Shown here piece after piece: positions 51,625 through 63,941 of a stretch of DNA of 64,000 nucleotides. How positions within the stretch are numbered: the first letter of the stretch is position 1; the number at the start of each line of letters is the position of its first letter. Origin of the DNA: Nordella sp. HKS 07 (GTDB lineage Bacteria > Pseudomonadota > Alphaproteobacteria > Rhizobiales > Aestuariivirgaceae); the NCBI RefSeq assembly GCF_011046735.1, contig NZ_CP049258.1:1528001-1592000 (forward strand), in the 5' to 3' direction. The notes beneath the pieces were generated by a model, which worked only from the letters and a program-made list of their open reading frames with translations, was not told where the DNA came from and searched no databases. A program made the translations under genes and the position numbers.

Positions 51625-52967
51625 TCAGGTGGCGAGCGATATTGGCTGCGTCAGGATGGCGGCGAGCAGCAAGCGCAGCAAGAACCTCAGCCAGGTGAGG
51701 AGAAGGCGGAAGTTATAGCCGGCGGCGGCGAGGATGGCGTTGATGGCGTCGCCCTGTGTTCCGGCGAGATAGTTGCGGCCCATGCGATGTTCGTTCTTGA
51801 CTAGGCCGATGACCGGTTCGACGGCGGCCCGCCGCTTCATCTCGCGTTTGATTAAAGGCGTCATCCGGCGCTTCTGGCCAGAGGTGTAGACCCTGAACCT
51901 GTGGGAGAGCGGGGAGTTGTGCCCCTTGTATCCGGCATCGGCCAGAAGGCGCTCGATGCCGTTGCCGAGCATGCCTTCCATCTCAGGGATCACGCTCGCC
52001 AGCGTGTGGCCGTCATAGGGATTGCCGGGCAGCGCCTTGGCATGCAGCGCGAACTGGCCGCCCTTCGAGCGCTTGAGCGCGGTGGCGATCGACACCTTGA
52101 CGGCGAATTCGTAGGGCCGATGCGCCTTGCCCTTGCCGATACATTCCACTTCAGACGCATGCAGACTGTAGACCTTCATGCCGCGCTGGTTCTGCCTCTG
52201 CTCGAGAACACGGCGTGCCAGGGAGAGCGGCCGCCGGATGATGCCCGCAAGGTCATCCTCGCCGGCAATCTGCCGGCCAATGTCGCGAATGGTACGTCCC
52301 AGATAGGTCTTGAGCTTGCGCAGCGCCTTGCCGGCCCGCTTGAACTGTCTGGCGTGGGCATAGCGCTGATGCTTGACCAGCAGCAACTTGCCCACCCGCG
52401 TGTAGCTCTGCCGCAACTCGAGGCCGACCCTCTTGGCCAGCTCACCAACTTCTCGCGCGCCCGCTGAAGGAGCTTGGCATCGGTGGGGAACATAACGTTC
52501 TTTGGCTCGACCGTCGGGTCGACGATCACCCGGCGTGTATCCTGGGGCGCCATGGCGCCGATCCTCACCGCAATCGACAGGCTCTCCTGCAATAACGCGG
52601 CGATCCGATCCTCGCCCATCCGCTGACGCCACCTCGTCATCGACGAGCGGTCGAAGGGCAACTCGCGCAGGAAGAATTCCTCGCCGCAGAAGTACTGGAA
52701 GTAGGGGTTCTCCACCCAGCGCGCGCACAGCTCCTCATCGGACAGATCGAAGGTATGTTTGAGGATCGCCAGTTCCGCCATCAGCCGGGTCGGCAAGGGC
52801 AGCATGCCGGGGCCTTCTCTGCAAGCCTCCCCGCACCTCGCCTCGATCGCCGGCCAGGTGATCGTCTGCGCGAGCTTCACCAGCTCATGCTTCATGCTGA
52901 TGATCTGGTCGAGGCGTGAGCGGAACAGGTCCTGGTCCCCCGTCTCGCGGCGATCCTGTGGCTTCAC
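51625..52967 (-). pseudogene. IS5-family transposase, frameshifted
   Basis: The GTG at 52967 (after GGGAGATT) starts VKPQDRRETGDQDLFRSRLD, followed by the DUF772-like HTFDLSDEELCARWVENPYF. The C-terminal DDE part is in another frame: VGLELRQSYTRVGKLLLVKH, LLADAGYKGHNSPLSHRF and RRAAVEPVIGLVKNEHRMGR. Adding one base near 52440 joins them. The first catalytic Asp is in VIVDPTVEP. Clear terminal inverted repeats could not be found by eye. The frameshift makes the element probably inactive. Confidence 0.85.
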
Positions 52968-53370
52968 TGCGAATCTCCCTGGCCGATCCCCTAACACCAG
53001 TGAATCACGCTTCCAGGGCTTCGTGAATTGAAAAGCGAATCTGCAAGGAAATCGACCTCGCCCCGCCCCTTCCCTGCAAAATCAAAATCTAGAACCTCAA
53101 TGATCAATCAAATCAATCAATGAGTTGGGGATAGCTCACGGGGGACGAAATAGTATGTCTCTGGCAGAGATCCAAACCTCCTGCGGCGCCAAATTTAAGT
53201 GGGCGAGGATTGTTGAGCCTTGGTTGGCCTCGGTTGCGGCCCACAACAATCGGTTATTTCGCGTTTTCGACCGAACAAGTGCCCGCGCAGGTGGGTTGGT
53301 TCGGGCCGGGAAACCAGACACACCCCCGCTATTTTGAAAACAATATAGAGAACCATAAGAGATAAGGGGA
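52968..53370. other. Intergenic stretch, partly AT-rich
   Basis: No convincing gene. It contains the presumed right end of the IS5 element, a short ATCAATCA tandem (53103-53120) and an AT-rich tract at about 53325-53368 directly beside the iteron-like repeats. Confidence 0.4.
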
Positions 53371-53445
53371 ACACCTGTGCCAGAGCTGGCGCAGGTTGAG
53401 CACAAACCTGCGCCAGATCGGTCACACCTACCTGCGCCAGATCGG
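53371..53445. repeat. Iteron-like repeats beside the polymerase operon
   Basis: Four copies of CCTGCGCCAG or a near match in 75 bases: CCTGTGCCAGAG (from 53373), an inverted copy CTGGCGCAGG (53386-53395), and two exact copies of ACCTGCGCCAGATCGG at 53406-53421 and 53430-53445 with a 24-base period. An AT-rich stretch adjoins on the left. Iterons next to AT-rich DNA and a replication-type gene resemble a plasmid-like origin, but they may also be a regulator's binding array. Confidence 0.55.
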
Positions 53446-53453
53446 GCGCGGGT

Positions 53454-53822
53454 TCAATCCGCGGCAGTCTTAAGCACCACGATCTGCGGTGAACGACCAG
53501 GTTTGGTTTCGACCGTGATGAGGCCGAGCTTCGCCAGTTCATCAAGGGCCCGCCACTTCGAGCGCGAGGCCACGCCTTCCTGCTGGGTGATGACGTTGGA
53601 CAGGGCGACGGGTTTGCCACCTCTGCGCCAATGCTCATAAAGCAGTACGAGCGCGACACGATAGGTGCTGACGCGCTTCGTCGATCGAAGCTGCTCAACC
53701 CATGTCCACGGTACACGCACGTAATAGTGCCGCCAAGACTTCGGCCTCTTGACCTTGCGCGCAACTGTCTCGCCATCGACGTGCAGTCGGCTGAGATCAA
53801 ATGGGTCATGGCTCATGGTCAT
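53454..53822 (-). CDS. Winged-helix-type accessory protein of the polymerase module
   Basis: 122 residues. It starts with MSHDPFDLSRLHVDGE, a motif shared with the protein at 55586. The C-terminal half (VSTYRVALVLLYEHWRRGGK, then ASRSKWRALDELAKLGLITV) looks like a winged helix. The ATG at 53822 overlaps the polymerase stop (ATGA), so translation is coupled. It may bind the adjacent iteron-like repeats; this is inference. Confidence 0.65.
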   Translation of the reverse strand: MTMSHDPFDLSRLHVDGETVARKVKRPKSWRHYYVRVPWTWVEQLRSTKRVSTYRVALVLLYEHWRRGGKPVALSNVITQQEGVASRSKWRALDELAKLGLITVETKPGRSPQIVVLKTAAD

Positions 53823-55585
53823 GCCACCACCTGCTGGCGCGCCTGACAGGCCTCGATCAGCTTCATCACCCGGTTCCACATCAGCGCGCCGCGCGGGTCA
53901 CTGTAGCGATCCGGATGCCGGGTGAGGTGCACGTCGGTGCGCAACTCGAAGCCATCGAGCACGATCCGGGACGCCTTCGCCATGGCGTCCCGCATACGCG
54001 CGATGTCATGGTCCAGCCGATCGAGCGGCGCGCAGATCAGCACCGCATCATGGATTAGGGCACACACTTCAATGCCGGCTTCGGTGGCAAGGCAGGCAGC
54101 GAGCCGCAACATTTCGCTGCCGTTGGCCTGACACGGGAAGTTGCGCAGCGAGCGCGGGTTGGGATGCTCGCCGATCAGGACCGGCCAGCCGAACACAGTC
54201 TGCAGCGATCCGGTAAGCATGGCCTGGTCGACCGTCGCGTCCGACCATCTCCAGAACGTCCGGTAGGTTTCATGGTGGATGCGCAGCAGGTCGCGCCCTA
54301 CGATCGGCGGTTTTCCAATGCGGCGTGCCAGCCCTTCTCCTTCCATACCGTACGCCACCGCCAACGCACACTGCTTGAAGAGTTCGCGCGTCGGGCCATG
54401 CGTGTGCTTTGTGGCGCCGGCGGGAACCGCACCGGCTTGGCGGGCAAACTCAAAGTACGGGTCCCGCGACCGGTACGCCGTCTGCATTGCCGGGTCGCCA
54501 GACAACGCCGCAGCGATCCCGTGCTCCTGCTGGCACCAGTCGATGTAGGCGACCCCGAACCCTTCTGGTGGCTGGACCAGGCTGCGCAGCCATACGCTCG
54601 GGCCGAAGATGTAGCGGGTATTGCTCGGCTGGCAGCGCCCGGTGCGCGAGCGGAAGGCGGACAAAATGGTCCGGTTTCGCCCGTCGCTGCCGACCGCAAG
54701 ATCTGCCAGCCGCAGGTCCGACAGCGCGCTGCGCAGCTCGCGCATCGGCGAGACCGCCGGCCAGGCACGTGCCATCTGGCGAAATGTATCGTCGCTCAGG
54801 TCGAGACGGCCGGACTCGAGCACTGGCCACGGGATGGCATGTTTGGCAAGGTAGCGTTGCCATCGGTCCAGTCGGAAACTGCGCCCGTCGAACACGCCGT
54901 AGTCCCGGTCGATGTCGGCGATCAGCTCATACTGGATCGCGGTCCAGTATCGGCGCAGCAGCTCGAGGGCCACAGTGTCGACCGGCGTGCCATTCCACTC
55001 GATGGCGGCGGCCGCCTTCATGAAGCGTCCGCGCAGCAGCGCCCGCGGCAGGTCGAGCCGCGGCAGCATCGCCGCCAGCAGCCGCTCGAGCGTCCGCACG
55101 TCGCTGCCACAGTATTGCAGGATGGCCGCCCGGTCCTCGGCCGCCCACGGGCCGCCGGCCAGGATGCAGGCGCGCAACTCCTGCTTCTCGGTGATGTCTA
55201 TGCCATCGATGCCGAACCAGGCCGCAGCGCCGAGCAGGCCCGCACCATGAGGCAACGTCAGACCGTTTGTGCGGGCGCGGAATTCGGTAAACAGGTCGAG
55301 GATGAAAACCGGCTGTGACCAGCCGAGCGCCTTGAAGCAGCCGAGCTCGGCGCTGGCATAGTAGGCGATCAGCAACGTATCGGTGCCGACCGGAAAGGGT
55401 GGATCGGTTCCAAATTCACCGCGCCACAGGGTCCAGATCTCGCCGCTGCGTAGTTCCTTGGCCACCATGCAGACAGGCCGCGGCCGCTCACCAGATCGGC
55501 CGGCGTCCTCGAGCGTCAGGTGGCCGCCGAACTCAAACTCGAAATCGACGGCCACCACATGGCGGAACGGCAGCCCCTCGAGCAT
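53819..55585 (-). CDS. Family-A DNA polymerase with 3'-5' exonuclease domain
   Basis: 588 residues. The N-terminal DnaQ-like exonuclease shows D14-F-E16 and Y158-x3-D162. The polymerase core shows motif A DWCQQEHG (D349), motif B RELFKQCALAVAYG (R400, K404, Y412) and motif C IHDAVL (D513). In motif C, Ala replaces the usual Glu of Pol I's HDE. The 5'-nuclease domain is absent and the protein is much shorter than cellular Pol I, resembling phage or element polymerases. It lies between two DPFDL-motif genes and opposite two tyrosine recombinases, so it probably belongs to a mobile element. Confidence 0.85.
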   Translation of the reverse strand: MLEGLPFRHVVAVDFEFEFGGHLTLEDAGRSGERPRPVCMVAKELRSGEIWTLWRGEFGTDPPFPVGTDTLLIAYYASAELGCFKALGWSQPVFILDLFTEFRARTNGLTLPHGAGLLGAAAWFGIDGIDITEKQELRACILAGGPWAAEDRAAILQYCGSDVRTLERLLAAMLPRLDLPRALLRGRFMKAAAAIEWNGTPVDTVALELLRRYWTAIQYELIADIDRDYGVFDGRSFRLDRWQRYLAKHAIPWPVLESGRLDLSDDTFRQMARAWPAVSPMRELRSALSDLRLADLAVGSDGRNRTILSAFRSRTGRCQPSNTRYIFGPSVWLRSLVQPPEGFGVAYIDWCQQEHGIAAALSGDPAMQTAYRSRDPYFEFARQAGAVPAGATKHTHGPTRELFKQCALAVAYGMEGEGLARRIGKPPIVGRDLLRIHHETYRTFWRWSDATVDQAMLTGSLQTVFGWPVLIGEHPNPRSLRNFPCQANGSEMLRLAACLATEAGIEVCALIHDAVLICAPLDRLDHDIARMRDAMAKASRIVLDGFELRTDVHLTRHPDRYSDPRGALMWNRVMKLIEACQARQQVVA

Positions 55586-56179
55586 CTAGCCACCGCGCAG
55601 GCGCTTGATGACGGGATGATCGGGGTGGTTGATCAGGCGATCCCGAAACGCGATTCGGTAGATCTCGTCAAACCCCATGTCCGGCCAAACCGGATCGGGA
55701 ATAGAACTCTCGGCTTCGAAGATCTCATTGGCACCGAGCGACATGTTCGCCTTGACGCGCACCCACCGCGTCATGGCGTGCTGCACGGCTGAGGCCGCCG
55801 ACTGGTGCCAGTTGTTCACGCGCCCGTCTGCGGCGGGGATCCGAACCGGCCACATGAACAGCACGTCGGTGCGGGTGATGACGGTGAACAGCGTTGCGAT
55901 GAAGCACTCGCTGTACATTTCCGGCACCGCGCCGAGGTCGACGAGATAAAACTCGCGATTGTCCTTGAACTCGACGAAGGCAAATGTCTCGCGGAACGCC
56001 GGCTCGGGACGCACGCGTATGAAGTCATGGGGGCTCGGCTTTTTCACCGGCACAGTCGTCAGCAATTTCTTAACGGCCGCGCCTTCAATATTCTCCCGGT
56101 TGACGCGCAGCTTTGTCAGATCGAAGGGATCGCTGCTCGCCGCGTTGTCGATTAGCTCAAGCGTCGGTTTCTCGGTCAT
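55586..56179 (-). CDS. Conserved mobile-element protein with DPFDL motif
   Basis: 197 residues. N-terminus SSDPFDLTKLRVNRENIEGA followed by VKKLLTTVPVKKPSPHDFIR, a block shared by small proteins I associate with rhizobial islands carrying a polymerase-like gene. The rest is an alpha/beta protein (LFMWPVRIPAADGRVNNWHQ, HPVIKRLRGG end). The ATG at 56179 follows a strong GGAGGT. Its stop abuts the polymerase start with no gap. Function unknown; association with DNA processing is inferred. Confidence 0.7.
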   Translation of the reverse strand: MTEKPTLELIDNAASSDPFDLTKLRVNRENIEGAAVKKLLTTVPVKKPSPHDFIRVRPEPAFRETFAFVEFKDNREFYLVDLGAVPEMYSECFIATLFTVITRTDVLFMWPVRIPAADGRVNNWHQSAASAVQHAMTRWVRVKANMSLGANEIFEAESSIPDPVWPDMGFDEIYRIAFRDRLINHPDHPVIKRLRGG

Positions 56180-56288
56180 CGAAATACCTCCATGTTTGGC
56201 TGGATGGTTGGGAAACGGGCCGTCGCCGACAGCGACGACAAACGCCTCGTCCTCGGTCACGATATCTACCCTCCGTTCTGGGTGCCAT

Positions 56289-56477
56289 TCAGGCATCTCC
56301 CGCGTCCTTTGCTTTGGAGGCGAGCCAGGCCCTCAGGTCAGCCACCAAGATGAGGCTACGCCGGCCAACCTTCAGCACTCGAAGATTGCCTTTCTGGATC
56401 TCGCAATAGAGAGTTGAGCGTCCGACACCGCCAAGACGGGCGGCTTCCAGGACGGGTACAGCAATCGGCTCGGTCAT
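56289..56477 (-). CDS. AlpA/excisionase-like HTH protein, short
   Basis: 62 residues with a MerR-like HTH_17 fold: VPVLEAARLGGVGRSTLYCE, then GNLRVLKVGRRSLILVADLR. Such proteins act as recombination directionality factors or local regulators. It is the first gene of the minus-strand polymerase operon. Confidence 0.75.
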   Translation of the reverse strand: MTEPIAVPVLEAARLGGVGRSTLYCEIQKGNLRVLKVGRRSLILVADLRAWLASKAKDAGDA

Positions 56478-57014
56478 TCGTATGTCCTCCTGGTCGTGAG
56501 CGGATGAGTCCGGATCACTGAGGACAGGATAGAAACTTTCGCAGGGCTCGATTCCGGGTTTTTTTCATGGCCCATTTAACCAATGGAACCGCATTGCAAG
56601 GCGCTGACAGAGAGAAATTAATGACGTGTTTTCAAAGTCTTAGTTCCTTTGATAGATCGTCAGTATACTGATAAAAATCTCATCTCGCCGGTGCTGACGG
56701 GGCCGACCTCTGACCCTGAGCCCTAACGGCGATTCGGCTGGGCAATGCGCGCCAAAGGGAGGAAGCGGGCATGGGCTGGTTGCCAAATGCGTTTTGGGCG
56801 CTGGGGGTTTGCTTGCGCCCTATGGGATCGAAATCAGTGGATTGCGCTCGACCGGAGGACGCACGCCACCCGCGTTGGTGATACCCCTTAACGCATTGGT
56901 ATTTCTATGGGAAATGGAAAAACTGGTCTCCGAAAATAGGCAAACGCGACCCATTTTCAACTGTTAGCCTCATTCCAACAGCTGGCAACAGCACGCCACA
57001 AAAGGAGTGATGCT
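56478..57014. promoter_or_regulatory. Divergent control region of the mobile module
   Basis: 537 bases without a convincing gene separate the two divergent HTH genes. A perfect 12-base palindrome TCAGTATACTGA lies at 56660-56671 in an AT-rich patch and is a candidate operator. Promoters for both directions should be here. Confidence 0.5.
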
Positions 57015-57323
57015 ATGAAAACCAAGCCCACCCTGATTGCTCATCCCACCTTGGCCGGCACAAAGTACCCCGGCCTGGTCAATCAGTCCGTTGCCAAAAC
57101 CTCAACACCACCGGTTACAGCCCACAACTACCTGTCGGTCAAGGAAGCTGCCGTCTTCCTGCGCCTGTCGAAGAGCTATCTCGATAAGGCACGCGTCGCC
57201 GGGACCGGTCCGGAATTCATCAGGTTGGGCGCCAAGAAGATTGTCTATCGCTTGGCCGATCTCGAAGCCTGGATGCGTCAGAACCGCTACCAATCGACAT
57301 CCGAGTATCGGGAGGGCAAGTAA
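57015..57323 (+). CDS. HTH_17 (AlpA/excisionase-type) protein
   Basis: 102 residues. After a flexible N-terminus the DNA-binding unit is YLSVKEAAVFLRLSKSYLDK followed by FIRLGAKKIVYRLADLEAWM. A ribosome site AAAGGAG precedes the ATG. It lies upstream of two tyrosine recombinases on the same strand and may steer their direction. Confidence 0.85.
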   Translation: MKTKPTLIAHPTLAGTKYPGLVNQSVAKTSTPPVTAHNYLSVKEAAVFLRLSKSYLDKARVAGTGPEFIRLGAKKIVYRLADLEAWMRQNRYQSTSEYREGK

Positions 57324-57504: not shown

Positions 57505-59223
57505 ATGGATCACCTTTCTCAACCTCCTAGGGCAACGACCAATCCTGGTGCCGCCCTATTGTTTGAGCCGTCACTTCGCGATGCAATGACTTTCCTCGAG
57601 CAGTCACCGGACCTTCCAGAGAGCCGGAGGCGGCATTGGCTTACAAGCCTGCGGATCACTGCCAAAGGCATTGGGAAACCCCCAGAATCGCTCCCTGTCC
57701 GCTTGACAGCGCTCCGTCACCATTTGGCTCGGCTCAGCCCCGTTCTCATGGGCATTGCGCCAAAGACGCTTTCCAATCATAGATCGAACGTCAAGGCAGC
57801 CATCGTCCATTTCATGGCGGTTGAAGGAATACCTTCGCGCGGCGCGCCGCTATCCCCCGAGTGGACGGCTATCATTAAGTCGATAACCGAAGTCAAGGCG
57901 GCCCGTCTTCTTAGCGGCATAGCCCGCTACTCCGGCGTAAGGGGCATCAAACCTCAGTCCGTGAACGAGCAGATAGTGGCTGCGTATTTTGCCTTCAGAC
58001 GCGAGACGAGCCTCTATGAAACCGGCATCACCCGTCAGCGAGAACTTTCGCGCGCCTGGAATCGGTGCGCCTGCTCGGTACCCGGCTGGCCTGACATCAG
58101 ACTTCGGCTGCCGGACCTTGAGTGCAAATCCGAATCCCGCAAATGGGCTGAATTTCCGGACGGCCTACGCCATGACGTGGCCAGGTATCTCGACCAGCTC
58201 GCCAAGCCCCACAGAACCTCCAAAGGCAAGCGCCGAAAGCCATCCAAGAAGTCCAGCATAGATACACGCCGGCGCGAACTTGTCGCCTTCGCCAACAAGG
58301 CCGTAGCCAATGGCATTGCGATTGAGAGCCTGGTATCCCTGCCGGCTCTCCTGGCTCCCGCAGTCGTTCAGACAGTCCTGGAGGGCTATATGGGTCAGGA
58401 TAAGCCGACCCGGTATGTCATCGACCTTCCCTGGAAGCTTCTGGCGATCGCCAGGTCGATTGGTGCTGCTTCGGAAACAATCGAGCGGCTTGAAGACATG
58501 CGCGAAGCGCTCGAAGCTCAACGCGGCGGCACGATGACCCAGAAGAACATGACCGTGATCAGGGCGGTGATGACGACCGACGTCTGGGATCACGTCTGCG
58601 ATCTTCCGGCTGTGATGATGATGGAGGCGAAGCGCCTGCTGAATAAGTCGCCGTCCAAGGCGGCAAGCCGGGCTGCCCTGGGTGTTCAGATCCTGCTCCT
58701 GACTAGGGCACCTGTCCGGGTGAGCAACCTCCTGAGCATTCGCATCGGGCACAATCTGATCAAGCCCGGTGGCATGAAGGCGCCTTATGTGCTCCTGTTT
58801 CCTGAATATGACGTCAAAAACCGGATCGATCTGGATTTTCCGCTGAGCCTGCCGACGTCAAAGCTGATTGACGAATTTATCCAGCTCTTCCGCCCGCATC
58901 TCGGCATTTCCCATCGCTCTGACTGGCTATTCCCCGGCGAACAGAAGGCCAGAAATGCTACTCATGCTAGCGTCTCAATCGCCGAGCGCATGCTCAAGGA
59001 AACCGGCATCCGCATTACCGCACATCAGTTCCGGCACGCGGCGGCGGCCGTCATTCTCCGCGCCAATCCCGGAAACTACGAATTTACCCGCCGCGTCCTC
59101 GGGCATTTGAACGTGCAGACGACCGTTCGCTTCTATGCCGGTCTCGAGAGTTTTCAGGCAAGCAAGCATTTTGGCGAACTGATTGAAAGCCGCCTCGCTT
59201 TCAGTGAGGATGCCGACGAATGA
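57505..59223 (+). CDS. Tyrosine recombinase 1
   Basis: 572 residues. Catalytic residues are in place: R405 (APVRVSNLL), H507-x-x-R510 (TAHQFRHA), H534 (LGHLNVQTT) and Y544 (RFYAG). The long N-terminal 380 residues include a SAM-like core-binding region. It ends with an ATGA overlap into the second recombinase. Confidence 0.85.
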   Translation: MDHLSQPPRATTNPGAALLFEPSLRDAMTFLEQSPDLPESRRRHWLTSLRITAKGIGKPPESLPVRLTALRHHLARLSPVLMGIAPKTLSNHRSNVKAAIVHFMAVEGIPSRGAPLSPEWTAIIKSITEVKAARLLSGIARYSGVRGIKPQSVNEQIVAAYFAFRRETSLYETGITRQRELSRAWNRCACSVPGWPDIRLRLPDLECKSESRKWAEFPDGLRHDVARYLDQLAKPHRTSKGKRRKPSKKSSIDTRRRELVAFANKAVANGIAIESLVSLPALLAPAVVQTVLEGYMGQDKPTRYVIDLPWKLLAIARSIGAASETIERLEDMREALEAQRGGTMTQKNMTVIRAVMTTDVWDHVCDLPAVMMMEAKRLLNKSPSKAASRAALGVQILLLTRAPVRVSNLLSIRIGHNLIKPGGMKAPYVLLFPEYDVKNRIDLDFPLSLPTSKLIDEFIQLFRPHLGISHRSDWLFPGEQKARNATHASVSIAERMLKETGIRITAHQFRHAAAAVILRANPGNYEFTRRVLGHLNVQTTVRFYAGLESFQASKHFGELIESRLAFSEDADE

Positions 59224-60263
59224 CCATATCCAAGATTCGATCGCTCAAGATCGCGGAGTGGCCGAATGCGGATCGAGAGGCCTGGGAGCGTGCCTGCAGG
59301 CCAGCCAGGAAACTGGGAAAAGGTGGTACAGCCGCTCATCTCAAGCCCGTCAGCCAGAAAGACCTTGAGCGACGTTACGGGTTTTTCCTCGACTACATCG
59401 CGAGGGCGTCATTCCTCGATATGGACGCCGAAGCCGGTGCATACGTGATACCAACGAACGTTGATGGGTATCTTGCCGAGCTGAAGGCCCGATTAAGCTC
59501 GGTGACGGTTTATGGCAGCATCCGCAAGCTGCGCCGGTTCGTCCAGCTGGTAGCGCCTGACATGGATTTGGGATGGCTTCAGGAGATCGAGCAGGATCTC
59601 GATTGGGCAAAGCAGCCAACATCAAAATTCGATCGCATCGTCGATTCGGACCGTATTGTTCAGGCCGGCATGACACTCATGGCGGAGGCAGAAACGGCGC
59701 ACCACCTCACTCCTCTCAGGCGCGCCCACAACTATCGCAACGGCCTAATGATCGCCTTCCTGGCGATCTTGCCAATCCGGCTGAAGAACTTTTCGGCGCT
59801 GAGGATCGGCAAGAATCTCGTGAATTACAGAAAGCATTGGCAGCTCATCATTCCAGCAACCGATAACAAGTCAGGACGTGCCGACGAACGCCCGGTGCCG
59901 CGATTTCTTGCCCCTTACCTTGACAAATATGTGGAAATCTATCGCCCGCTGCTCAAGCCTCAATCGGACGGTTTGTGGGTTTCGACTTATGGTGGCGATC
60001 TTTCATACAAAGGGTGTGCACAGGTCGTCACTGAAACGACAAGGACGACGCTCGGTATCGCCGTTTCGCCCCACCTGATGCGGTCATGCGCGGCCTCAAC
60101 CGCATACCTGCATGCTGGTGATGATCCGGACCTGGCATCGGGGCTTCTTCAACATGTCGATAAAACAGTAACCGAGCGCCATTACAATCGGACACGTGGT
60201 GCCAGCTATGGGCGAGCTTTCTCCTCTTTGGTGGAGAAAGCAGATGGTAGCGGATGCAGCTAG
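59220..60263 (+). CDS. Tyrosine recombinase 2
   Basis: 347 residues with R187 (LPIRLKNF), H285-x-x-R288 (SPHLMRSCAAS), H312 (LLQHVDKTV) and Y322 (ERHYNRT), so catalytically complete. Divergent from recombinase 1 in sequence and length, so not a recent duplicate. Coupled translation suggests both act together, as in tandem or trio recombinase modules of mobile elements. Confidence 0.85.
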   Translation: MTISKIRSLKIAEWPNADREAWERACRPARKLGKGGTAAHLKPVSQKDLERRYGFFLDYIARASFLDMDAEAGAYVIPTNVDGYLAELKARLSSVTVYGSIRKLRRFVQLVAPDMDLGWLQEIEQDLDWAKQPTSKFDRIVDSDRIVQAGMTLMAEAETAHHLTPLRRAHNYRNGLMIAFLAILPIRLKNFSALRIGKNLVNYRKHWQLIIPATDNKSGRADERPVPRFLAPYLDKYVEIYRPLLKPQSDGLWVSTYGGDLSYKGCAQVVTETTRTTLGIAVSPHLMRSCAASTAYLHAGDDPDLASGLLQHVDKTVTERHYNRTRGASYGRAFSSLVEKADGSGCS

Positions 60264-60316
60264 AGCGCGCACTCATGAATCGAGCAAGATTTGTGCGACC
60301 TTCACCATTGTCCGCT

Positions 60317-60377
60317 ATGCCACGATAGCGGACCAAAATTCGCGATGCAGCAAAGCGACGCAATGGGCCAGAATCGG
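60317..60377. repeat. Direct repeat around the sulfotransferase/cyclase pair, copy 1
   Basis: About 61 bases resemble 63342-63402: TATGCCACGATAGCG (here) versus TATGCCCCGATAGCG, and GACGCAATGGGCCA in both. The two copies have the same orientation and flank the sulfotransferase and cyclase genes. Confidence 0.6.
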
Positions 60378-63208: not shown

Positions 63209-63673
63209 CTGTAACAATTGCTAATAATGATCAAGCTACCCGATTGTATGATTACTGAGGGTGAAGAGTCTATTGGCCCCAACTTCCGGTTCGGGTCATT
63301 CGCTACCGGGCCGAGCCAGCAGCCAAGTCCAGCTATGTCGGCTATGCCCCGATAGCGACTAAACTTCTGCAGCGCAGCAAAATGACGCAATGGGCCATGT
63401 GTGGACGGCTCCGGGCTGTCAAGGTTCTTTTGCATGTCGCAGCGCTGGTCGTAGCAGCCATGTGTTCGGCCTTTGAGTGCGGCTCATAGGGCCGCTGGCC
63501 ATTATGCCTCCCGTGGATCATGTCCCGGTCAAAAGCTCGCATTCGACAATGCTGTGGCCCATGTGGATTGTCCTGATCGCCGGATCGACCGGTTCTGCGT
63601 TACCTGCTGTCAGTCCTTTCCAGCCTTCACATCACGCCCTTGCGGGCGCGATCTCCTCCAAAGTCGCCGTGCC
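63209..63673. other. Intergenic stretch with repeat copy 2
   Basis: 465 bases without a supported gene. It contains the second copy of the direct repeat (63342-63402) seen at 60317, and then DNA leading to the IS110 remnant. Confidence 0.5.
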
Positions 63674-63862
63674 CTAGCGAGCCAGCGCGACGGGTTCCGT
63701 GTAACGCTCGCCCTTGGCCATCATCGCCCAGGCCATGCGGGCGATCTTGTTGGCGAGCGCGATCGCGGCCACCTTTGTCGGCCGCCGCTCCAGCAGCTTG
63801 GCAAGCCATGGCCGATGCTTGGTGCCGTGGATTTTCGCGTATCGGATCACCGCCAACGCGCT
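63674..63862 (-). pseudogene. IS110-family transposase C-terminal fragment
   Basis: Reads AVIRYAKIHGTKHRPWLAKL, LERRPTKVAAIALANKIARM and AWAMMAKGERYTEPVALAR-stop, the usual IS110 C-terminus. The frame upstream continues into unrelated DNA from about 63863, where an IS5-type element seems to begin, so the gene is truncated. Confidence 0.75.
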
Positions 63863-63941
63863 AGAGTCTGTCTTCAGTTGAGGGATTCCCAAATCAGCGA
63901 TTGAGTGATTCATGGGAGGTCGGTTTTTGGAGGGCCGACCG

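Follow-up and report, generated by a model that had tools for sequence, protein, structure and literature searches.

The polymerase gene and its neighbors in the window (the whole 64,000-nucleotide stretch of Nordella sp. HKS 07 DNA analyzed here) probably form a cassette of the early, replication type found in temperate tailed phages; here it lies in a chromosomal island that lacks virion genes, and a mechanism for it is proposed below. The cassette is arranged in the order HTH gene, 236-residue protein gene, family A polymerase gene, and winged-helix gene, followed by a repeat array and a pyrimidine-rich tract; its coding parts are intact and under purifying selection. Within this reading, the island would be either a prophage remnant bordered by an insertion sequence (IS) or a satellite-like element.

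Organization of the polymerase operon

The polymerase gene (53819..55585, minus strand) encodes a 588-residue family A DNA polymerase with a 3'-5' exonuclease, as assigned from Pfam, the catalytic residues, and dN/dS. The protein matches PF00476 (E = 4e-14, above the cut-off), and the catalytic motifs A, B, and C of the Pol A domain are present, while the N-terminal 5'-nuclease domain is absent. The exonuclease residues are D14, E16, E80, D97, Y158, and D162, those of the polymerase domain are D349, E354, R400, K404, Y412, H512, and D513, and both groups are mostly invariant or nearly so across 26 relatives; DNA synthesis and proofreading are predicted from these residues. The gene for the 122-residue winged-helix protein (53454..53822, minus strand), whose family profile matches winged-helix regulators, starts at 53822 and overlaps the stop codon of the polymerase gene by exactly the four bases ATGA (53819-53822). 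The preliminary description had named a family A polymerase without a 5'-nuclease, its ATGA coupling to a winged-helix gene, four repeats with an AT-rich tract past that gene, and two tyrosine recombinases on the opposite strand, and all of these parts were recovered.

Two conserved members of the module had been overlooked there, namely the gene for the 236-residue protein (56296-55586) and an HTH_17 excisionase/AlpA-like gene (56289..56477, minus strand; TIGR01764, above the cut-off), which is the first gene of the same operon. The nearest relative of the polymerase is that of Bradyrhizobium jicamae (79% identity), against which dN/dS is 0.10 for the polymerase and 0.19 for the 236-residue protein, with synonymous sites near saturation; ratios of approximately 0.1 to 0.2 point to functional genes. 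Neither a primase nor a helicase was recognized in the cassette. The genes at 53.4-60.3 kb include no virion genes, the window showed neither terminase nor capsid genes, and the attachment sites flanking virion and lysis genes, which mark a complete prophage, were not found.

Predicted structure of the 236-residue protein

The 236-residue protein (55586..56296, minus strand) has no family match and was assigned by fold comparison of AlphaFold models, in which the window protein has a pLDDT of 83 and the core of a relative a pLDDT of 95. PrgE and gp32 came up in these comparisons, but none of the Foldseek matches in the PDB was significant. When the candidates from Foldseek were re-compared, T4/RB69 gp32 ranked first for both models with Z-scores of 4.8/4.7 and 4.7/4.5, which, being below 5, are no proof and lie under the level that stands alone. 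Mainly OB-fold proteins, including the PRD1 single-stranded DNA-binding protein (SSB) P12, follow gp32 for both models. The protein is thus probably an OB-fold single-stranded DNA-binding protein with a weak gp32-like match, and the position of its gene next to the polymerase gene fits an SSB.

An N-terminal peptide of the DPFDLxxLRV type is found in two proteins of the window, as DPFDLTKLRV in the 236-residue protein and DPFDLSRLHV in the winged-helix protein. It is common in the 236-residue family, occurs in a minority of the winged-helix proteins, and was also seen in L127, L129, L037, and L043. Through this peptide, the two proteins might dock on one shared partner.

Repeat array and pyrimidine-rich tract

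Approximately 15 bases past the stop codon of the winged-helix gene lie four CCTGYGCCAG repeats (53374..53440), the proposed iterons, which start at 53374(+), 53386(-), 53407(+), and 53431(+). The window holds four copies of this motif, compared with one or two in shuffled sequence, and the 7.18-Mb genome contains a single such array. Beside the repeats is a pyrimidine/AT-rich tract (53329..53371, read on the minus strand) with 75% pyrimidine in 40 bases. Repeats, tract, and winged-helix gene are present, and the repeats and tract are read as a predicted iteron origin, which the winged-helix protein would bind as initiator.

A general dense-repeat scan had indicated that repeats are nearly absent from the relatives, a result overturned by the viral contigs and by direct inspection after stop codons. 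Arrays of three to six repeats are found at or near the stop codon of the winged-helix gene in contigs L127, L128, L129, L131, L144, and L145, and after the polymerase gene in L034, L047, L056, L141, and L150. The repeat sequences are lineage specific, but a pyrimidine-rich stretch, often TCTTAT/TCTCTT, comes after every array; repeats that differ by lineage yet keep their position beside a winged-helix gene are as expected of an initiator with iterons. Defined by three or more copies and a pyrimidine content of at least 70% over 40 bases, a criterion fixed after examples had been seen, repeats with a tract directly follow the polymerase or winged-helix gene in 12 of 49 loci, compared with 16 of 509 control stop-codon pairs (p = 6e-7). 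None of the four testable loci found later passed this criterion, and most bacterial loci have no array, with 0 of 24 positive by the winged-helix criterion. The expectation that homologous loci would carry the repeats therefore held for a minority, in which array and tract occupy the same place, and failed for the majority; the combination is a recurrent, not a universal, feature.

Distribution in bacterial genomes

When approximately 85,000 species genomes were scanned with an alignment of three polymerase sequences, 30 loci were obtained, mostly from Planctomycetota and Pseudomonadota and also from Myxococcota and Fibrobacterota; many of these loci are metagenome bins, for which the assigned host names may be wrong. 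The conserved gene order that had been proposed as a check was recovered, with the 236-residue protein, polymerase, and winged-helix genes in approximately 30 bacterial loci and 26 IMG/VR contigs. Every locus with an intact polymerase 5' end has the 236-residue gene immediately upstream, often with a four-base overlap, and in most loci the winged-helix gene is the next one downstream. Among 385 sampled alphaproteobacterial genomes, six carry the polymerase, the genome of the window included. A plasmid scan found no close polymerase relatives on plasmids. In the polymerase tree, the Planctomycetota and Pseudomonadota sequences largely cluster by phylum, so that the tree provides no evidence of recent transfer between phyla. 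Literature searches aimed at the HTH/236-residue/polymerase/winged-helix module returned no description of it.

In B. jicamae PAC68, two contigs (L039 and L061) both end at polymerase residue 397 with a dS of 0.15, and this strain probably holds two copies of the cassette because the two polymerases differ at synonymous sites. Six planctomycete polymerases (L054, L056, L059, L060, L063, and L064) carry an extra domain of approximately 155 residues after residue 232; an intein was considered and appears unlikely, since the insertion starts with a VPTG/VPSG-like sequence and has no intein-type cysteine.

Phage contigs and tRNA-bounded islands

The 26 IMG/VR contigs were retrieved with a larger alignment; a viral scan with a single protein gave no match, and the alignment-based scans did. 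Many of these contigs run on into genes for a Nu1-type small terminase subunit (TerS), a gpA-type large subunit (TerL), portal, and capsid proteins, and in several of them a tyrosine or large serine integrase gene lies upstream of the module. TerS, TerL, portal, and capsid genes stand beside the module in L127, L131, L139, L034, and L063, among which L034 and L063 are bacterial loci that also show packaging or capsid genes. The module is thus read as an early, replication-type module of tailed temperate phages, as it often stands between an integrase gene and terminase, portal, and capsid genes. In L127, whose polymerase is 65% identical over the best segment, only the module and open reading frames of at most 183 residues lie between the integrase and TerS genes; the small frames that were scanned gave no Pfam match, and no primase or helicase was recognized there. 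An AAA ATPase gene is located approximately 3 kb upstream of the module in L145, so that some lineages may have helper ATPases. Isolate phages contain only remote polymerase relatives (23-35% identity), and a search with the L131 member of the 236-residue family gave no match among 50,697 isolate phage records. The cassette thus marks a temperate-phage lineage represented in this analysis solely by metagenomic contigs and prophage-like loci.

The cassette is also found in small islands. In L060 (Pirellulales), a 7.5-kb island is bounded by a 44-bp direct repeat that is the 3' part of a tRNA-Met gene, and it contains two HTH genes, the genes for the 236-residue protein, polymerase, and winged-helix protein, an integrase gene, and a gene pair that is, judged by its sequence, a candidate toxin-antitoxin pair. 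In L045, copies of a 73-bp tRNA-Sec repeat flank an island of 10.2 kb, and G451 has an imperfect tRNA-Arg repeat. With an integrase and tRNA-derived direct repeats, L060 and L045 are integrative elements, and virion-less, tRNA-integrated islands thus share the phage-type cassette. In most other loci with a tRNA gene at the integrase gene, a second tRNA copy was not found, partly because contigs end there. The polymerase gene of L045 (9980-11851) is broken by one in-frame TGA stop codon.

Recombinase pair and borders of the island

Divergent from the polymerase operon, on the plus strand, are genes for a large tyrosine recombinase (57505..59223, 572 residues; Pfam Phage_integrase, E = 9e-12) and a small one (59220..60263, 347 residues; Phage_integrase, E = 9e-6, just under the curated cut-off), both of which retain the R...HxxR...Y motifs. 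They are preceded by an HTH_17 gene identified by Pfam (HTH102; 57015..57323, plus strand), and this unit is maybe a separate element. The order HTH, large recombinase, small recombinase recurs as a compact unit on alphaproteobacterial plasmids (loci L109, L110, and L111), and it was seen on plasmids of Roseomonas, Azospirillum, and Pukyongiella, where no PolA cassette was found; the recombinase pair is also present in Microvirga, in a record that is unannotated there. The pair may have arrived next to the cassette as a unit of its own, or it may represent an exchanged integration module.

Neither att sites nor terminal direct repeats were found around the window element, and a paralogous sulfotransferase region considered as a candidate empty site was discarded because it ends short of the boundary. 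On the other side, a frameshifted IS with a DUF772/DDE transposase (51625..53152, minus strand; Pfam) borders the cassette from outside. Its end lies approximately 220 bp beyond the repeats, roughly where the phages start the stretch towards their terminase genes, so that an IS-associated loss of late genes is possible. A repeat of approximately 480-530 bases at 63336-63864 has around ten copies in the genome that are 93-97% identical, and a 62-base fragment past the second recombinase gene (60309-60370) is related to its edge.

Proposed mechanism and alternative explanations

In the proposed mechanism, the winged-helix protein would bind the repeats adjoining its own gene and the neighboring pyrimidine/AT tract would open. 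The OB-fold 236-residue protein would coat the exposed single-stranded DNA, and the polymerase would extend a 3' end provided by a host primase or a transcript, with proofreading and strand displacement; excision and integration would be carried out by the recombinase pair or by a phage integrase that was lost. More tentatively, and with somewhat less than even confidence, we suggest an undescribed minimal replicon in which a repeat-binding winged-helix protein, a gp32-like SSB, and a proofreading PolA would act at an origin of repeats plus pyrimidine tract without a primase or helicase of their own, and which would be common to uncultured temperate phages and small tRNA-integrated elements of several phyla. 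If the cassette replicates DNA in this way, it would illustrate how a phage can rely on a polymerase and SSB of its own while borrowing priming and unwinding, and the intact copies of the cassette would make the proposal testable on a plasmid.

The preliminary description had proposed an integrative element able to replicate or to prime its own DNA. Self-replication is plausible, and the conserved neighborhood and the relatives with tRNA repeats favor such an element, although phage replication cassette is the better description. Self-priming was not borne out, as nothing recognized in the module is able to prime DNA alone. Integration is evident in the relatives with tRNA-derived direct repeats, whereas no att sites were found for the window, and its recombinase pair, which also exists by itself on plasmids, may not belong to the same element.

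Given the terminase genes downstream of the array in the phages, the main alternative to an iteron origin is a packaging site of the cos/pac type, in which the repeats would be recognized by terminase and the element would be a phage satellite or remnant. The phage array falls between the winged-helix gene and the Nu1/gpA-type terminase genes, a position comparable to that of cosB beside nu1-A in lambda; however, the array is tied to the stop codon of the polymerase or winged-helix gene, with the terminase gene some 600-2000 bases further on, and it is also present in L047 and L056, both of them without a recognized terminase nearby, so that we regard a packaging site as unlikely. Slightly less likely again is that the repeats serve only as an operator or transcript-level site (autoregulation or termination) of the early operon and that replication starts elsewhere. 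Inverted repeat pairs beside a winged-helix gene are typical of operators, and a pyrimidine-rich transcript can act in termination, whereas this array is at the 3' end of the operon and consists of direct repeats approximately two helical turns apart, followed by the pyrimidine/AT tract.

Two further explanations concern the element as a whole. The cassette and the recombinase genes are adjacent and divergent, and they could belong to one integrative element of approximately 7 kb (~53.3-60.3 kb), moved into and out of the chromosome by the recombinase pair and copied as a circle by the PolA cassette after excision. In relatives, the integrase that accompanies the cassette is exchangeable, being of several kinds and located either upstream or downstream, which makes a further swap in the window plausible. 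This single element is nevertheless doubtful, with roughly one chance in its favor to several against, given that the recombinase unit travels on plasmids without PolA and stands beside PolA in no other locus found, that the GC content is 56-58% for the recombinase genes and 66% for the polymerase gene, and that no terminal repeats were found. A role of the polymerase and its partners in anti-phage defense, related to reverse transcriptase (RT)-associated PolA, is highly improbable: the PADLOC RTasPolA profile does match the polymerase (E = 1.8e-18), but over the shared polymerase domain, nine other proteins tested had no defense match, and the cassette sits in phage early regions. The partner reverse transcriptase of such a defense system (DRT) is missing from the neighbor genes scanned. 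The phage replication cassette is the preferred reading, and it is compared below with known systems.

Comparison with known systems

Pipolins are self-synthesizing integrative elements that encode a primer-independent family B polymerase (PMC7385651). Like the element in the window, they are integrated and encode a DNA polymerase of their own as well as tyrosine recombinases (PMC7385651), whereas the window polymerase belongs to family A and is not a piPolB, which sets it outside the pipolins. The 7.5-kb island of L060 resembles the PICI/PICMI phage satellites, which are small integrated islands with an integrase, few genes, and no capsid genes (PMC10803314); however, its replication gene set is different, and neither a helper phage nor packaging is known for it.

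Replication of the T7/T4 type, with the family A polymerase of the former and the gp32 SSB of the latter, shares with the window an enzyme that combines exonuclease and polymerase beside a probable OB-fold single-stranded DNA-binding protein. In contrast, no primase-helicase was recognized in the window, the polymerase is remote from the isolate phage enzymes, and the 236-residue protein has no isolate relative. The lambda-type origin comprises the O protein, four iterons, and an AT-rich region. Its likeness to the window cassette is one of layout and does not imply homology: both place four repeats and an AT/pyrimidine-rich tract beside the gene of a small winged-helix protein, within the early region of temperate phages. 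The repeats of the window follow the winged-helix gene, whereas those of lambda are inside the gene, and the cassette has its own PolA and SSB-like protein, whereas lambda uses a helicase loader and the host polymerase III.
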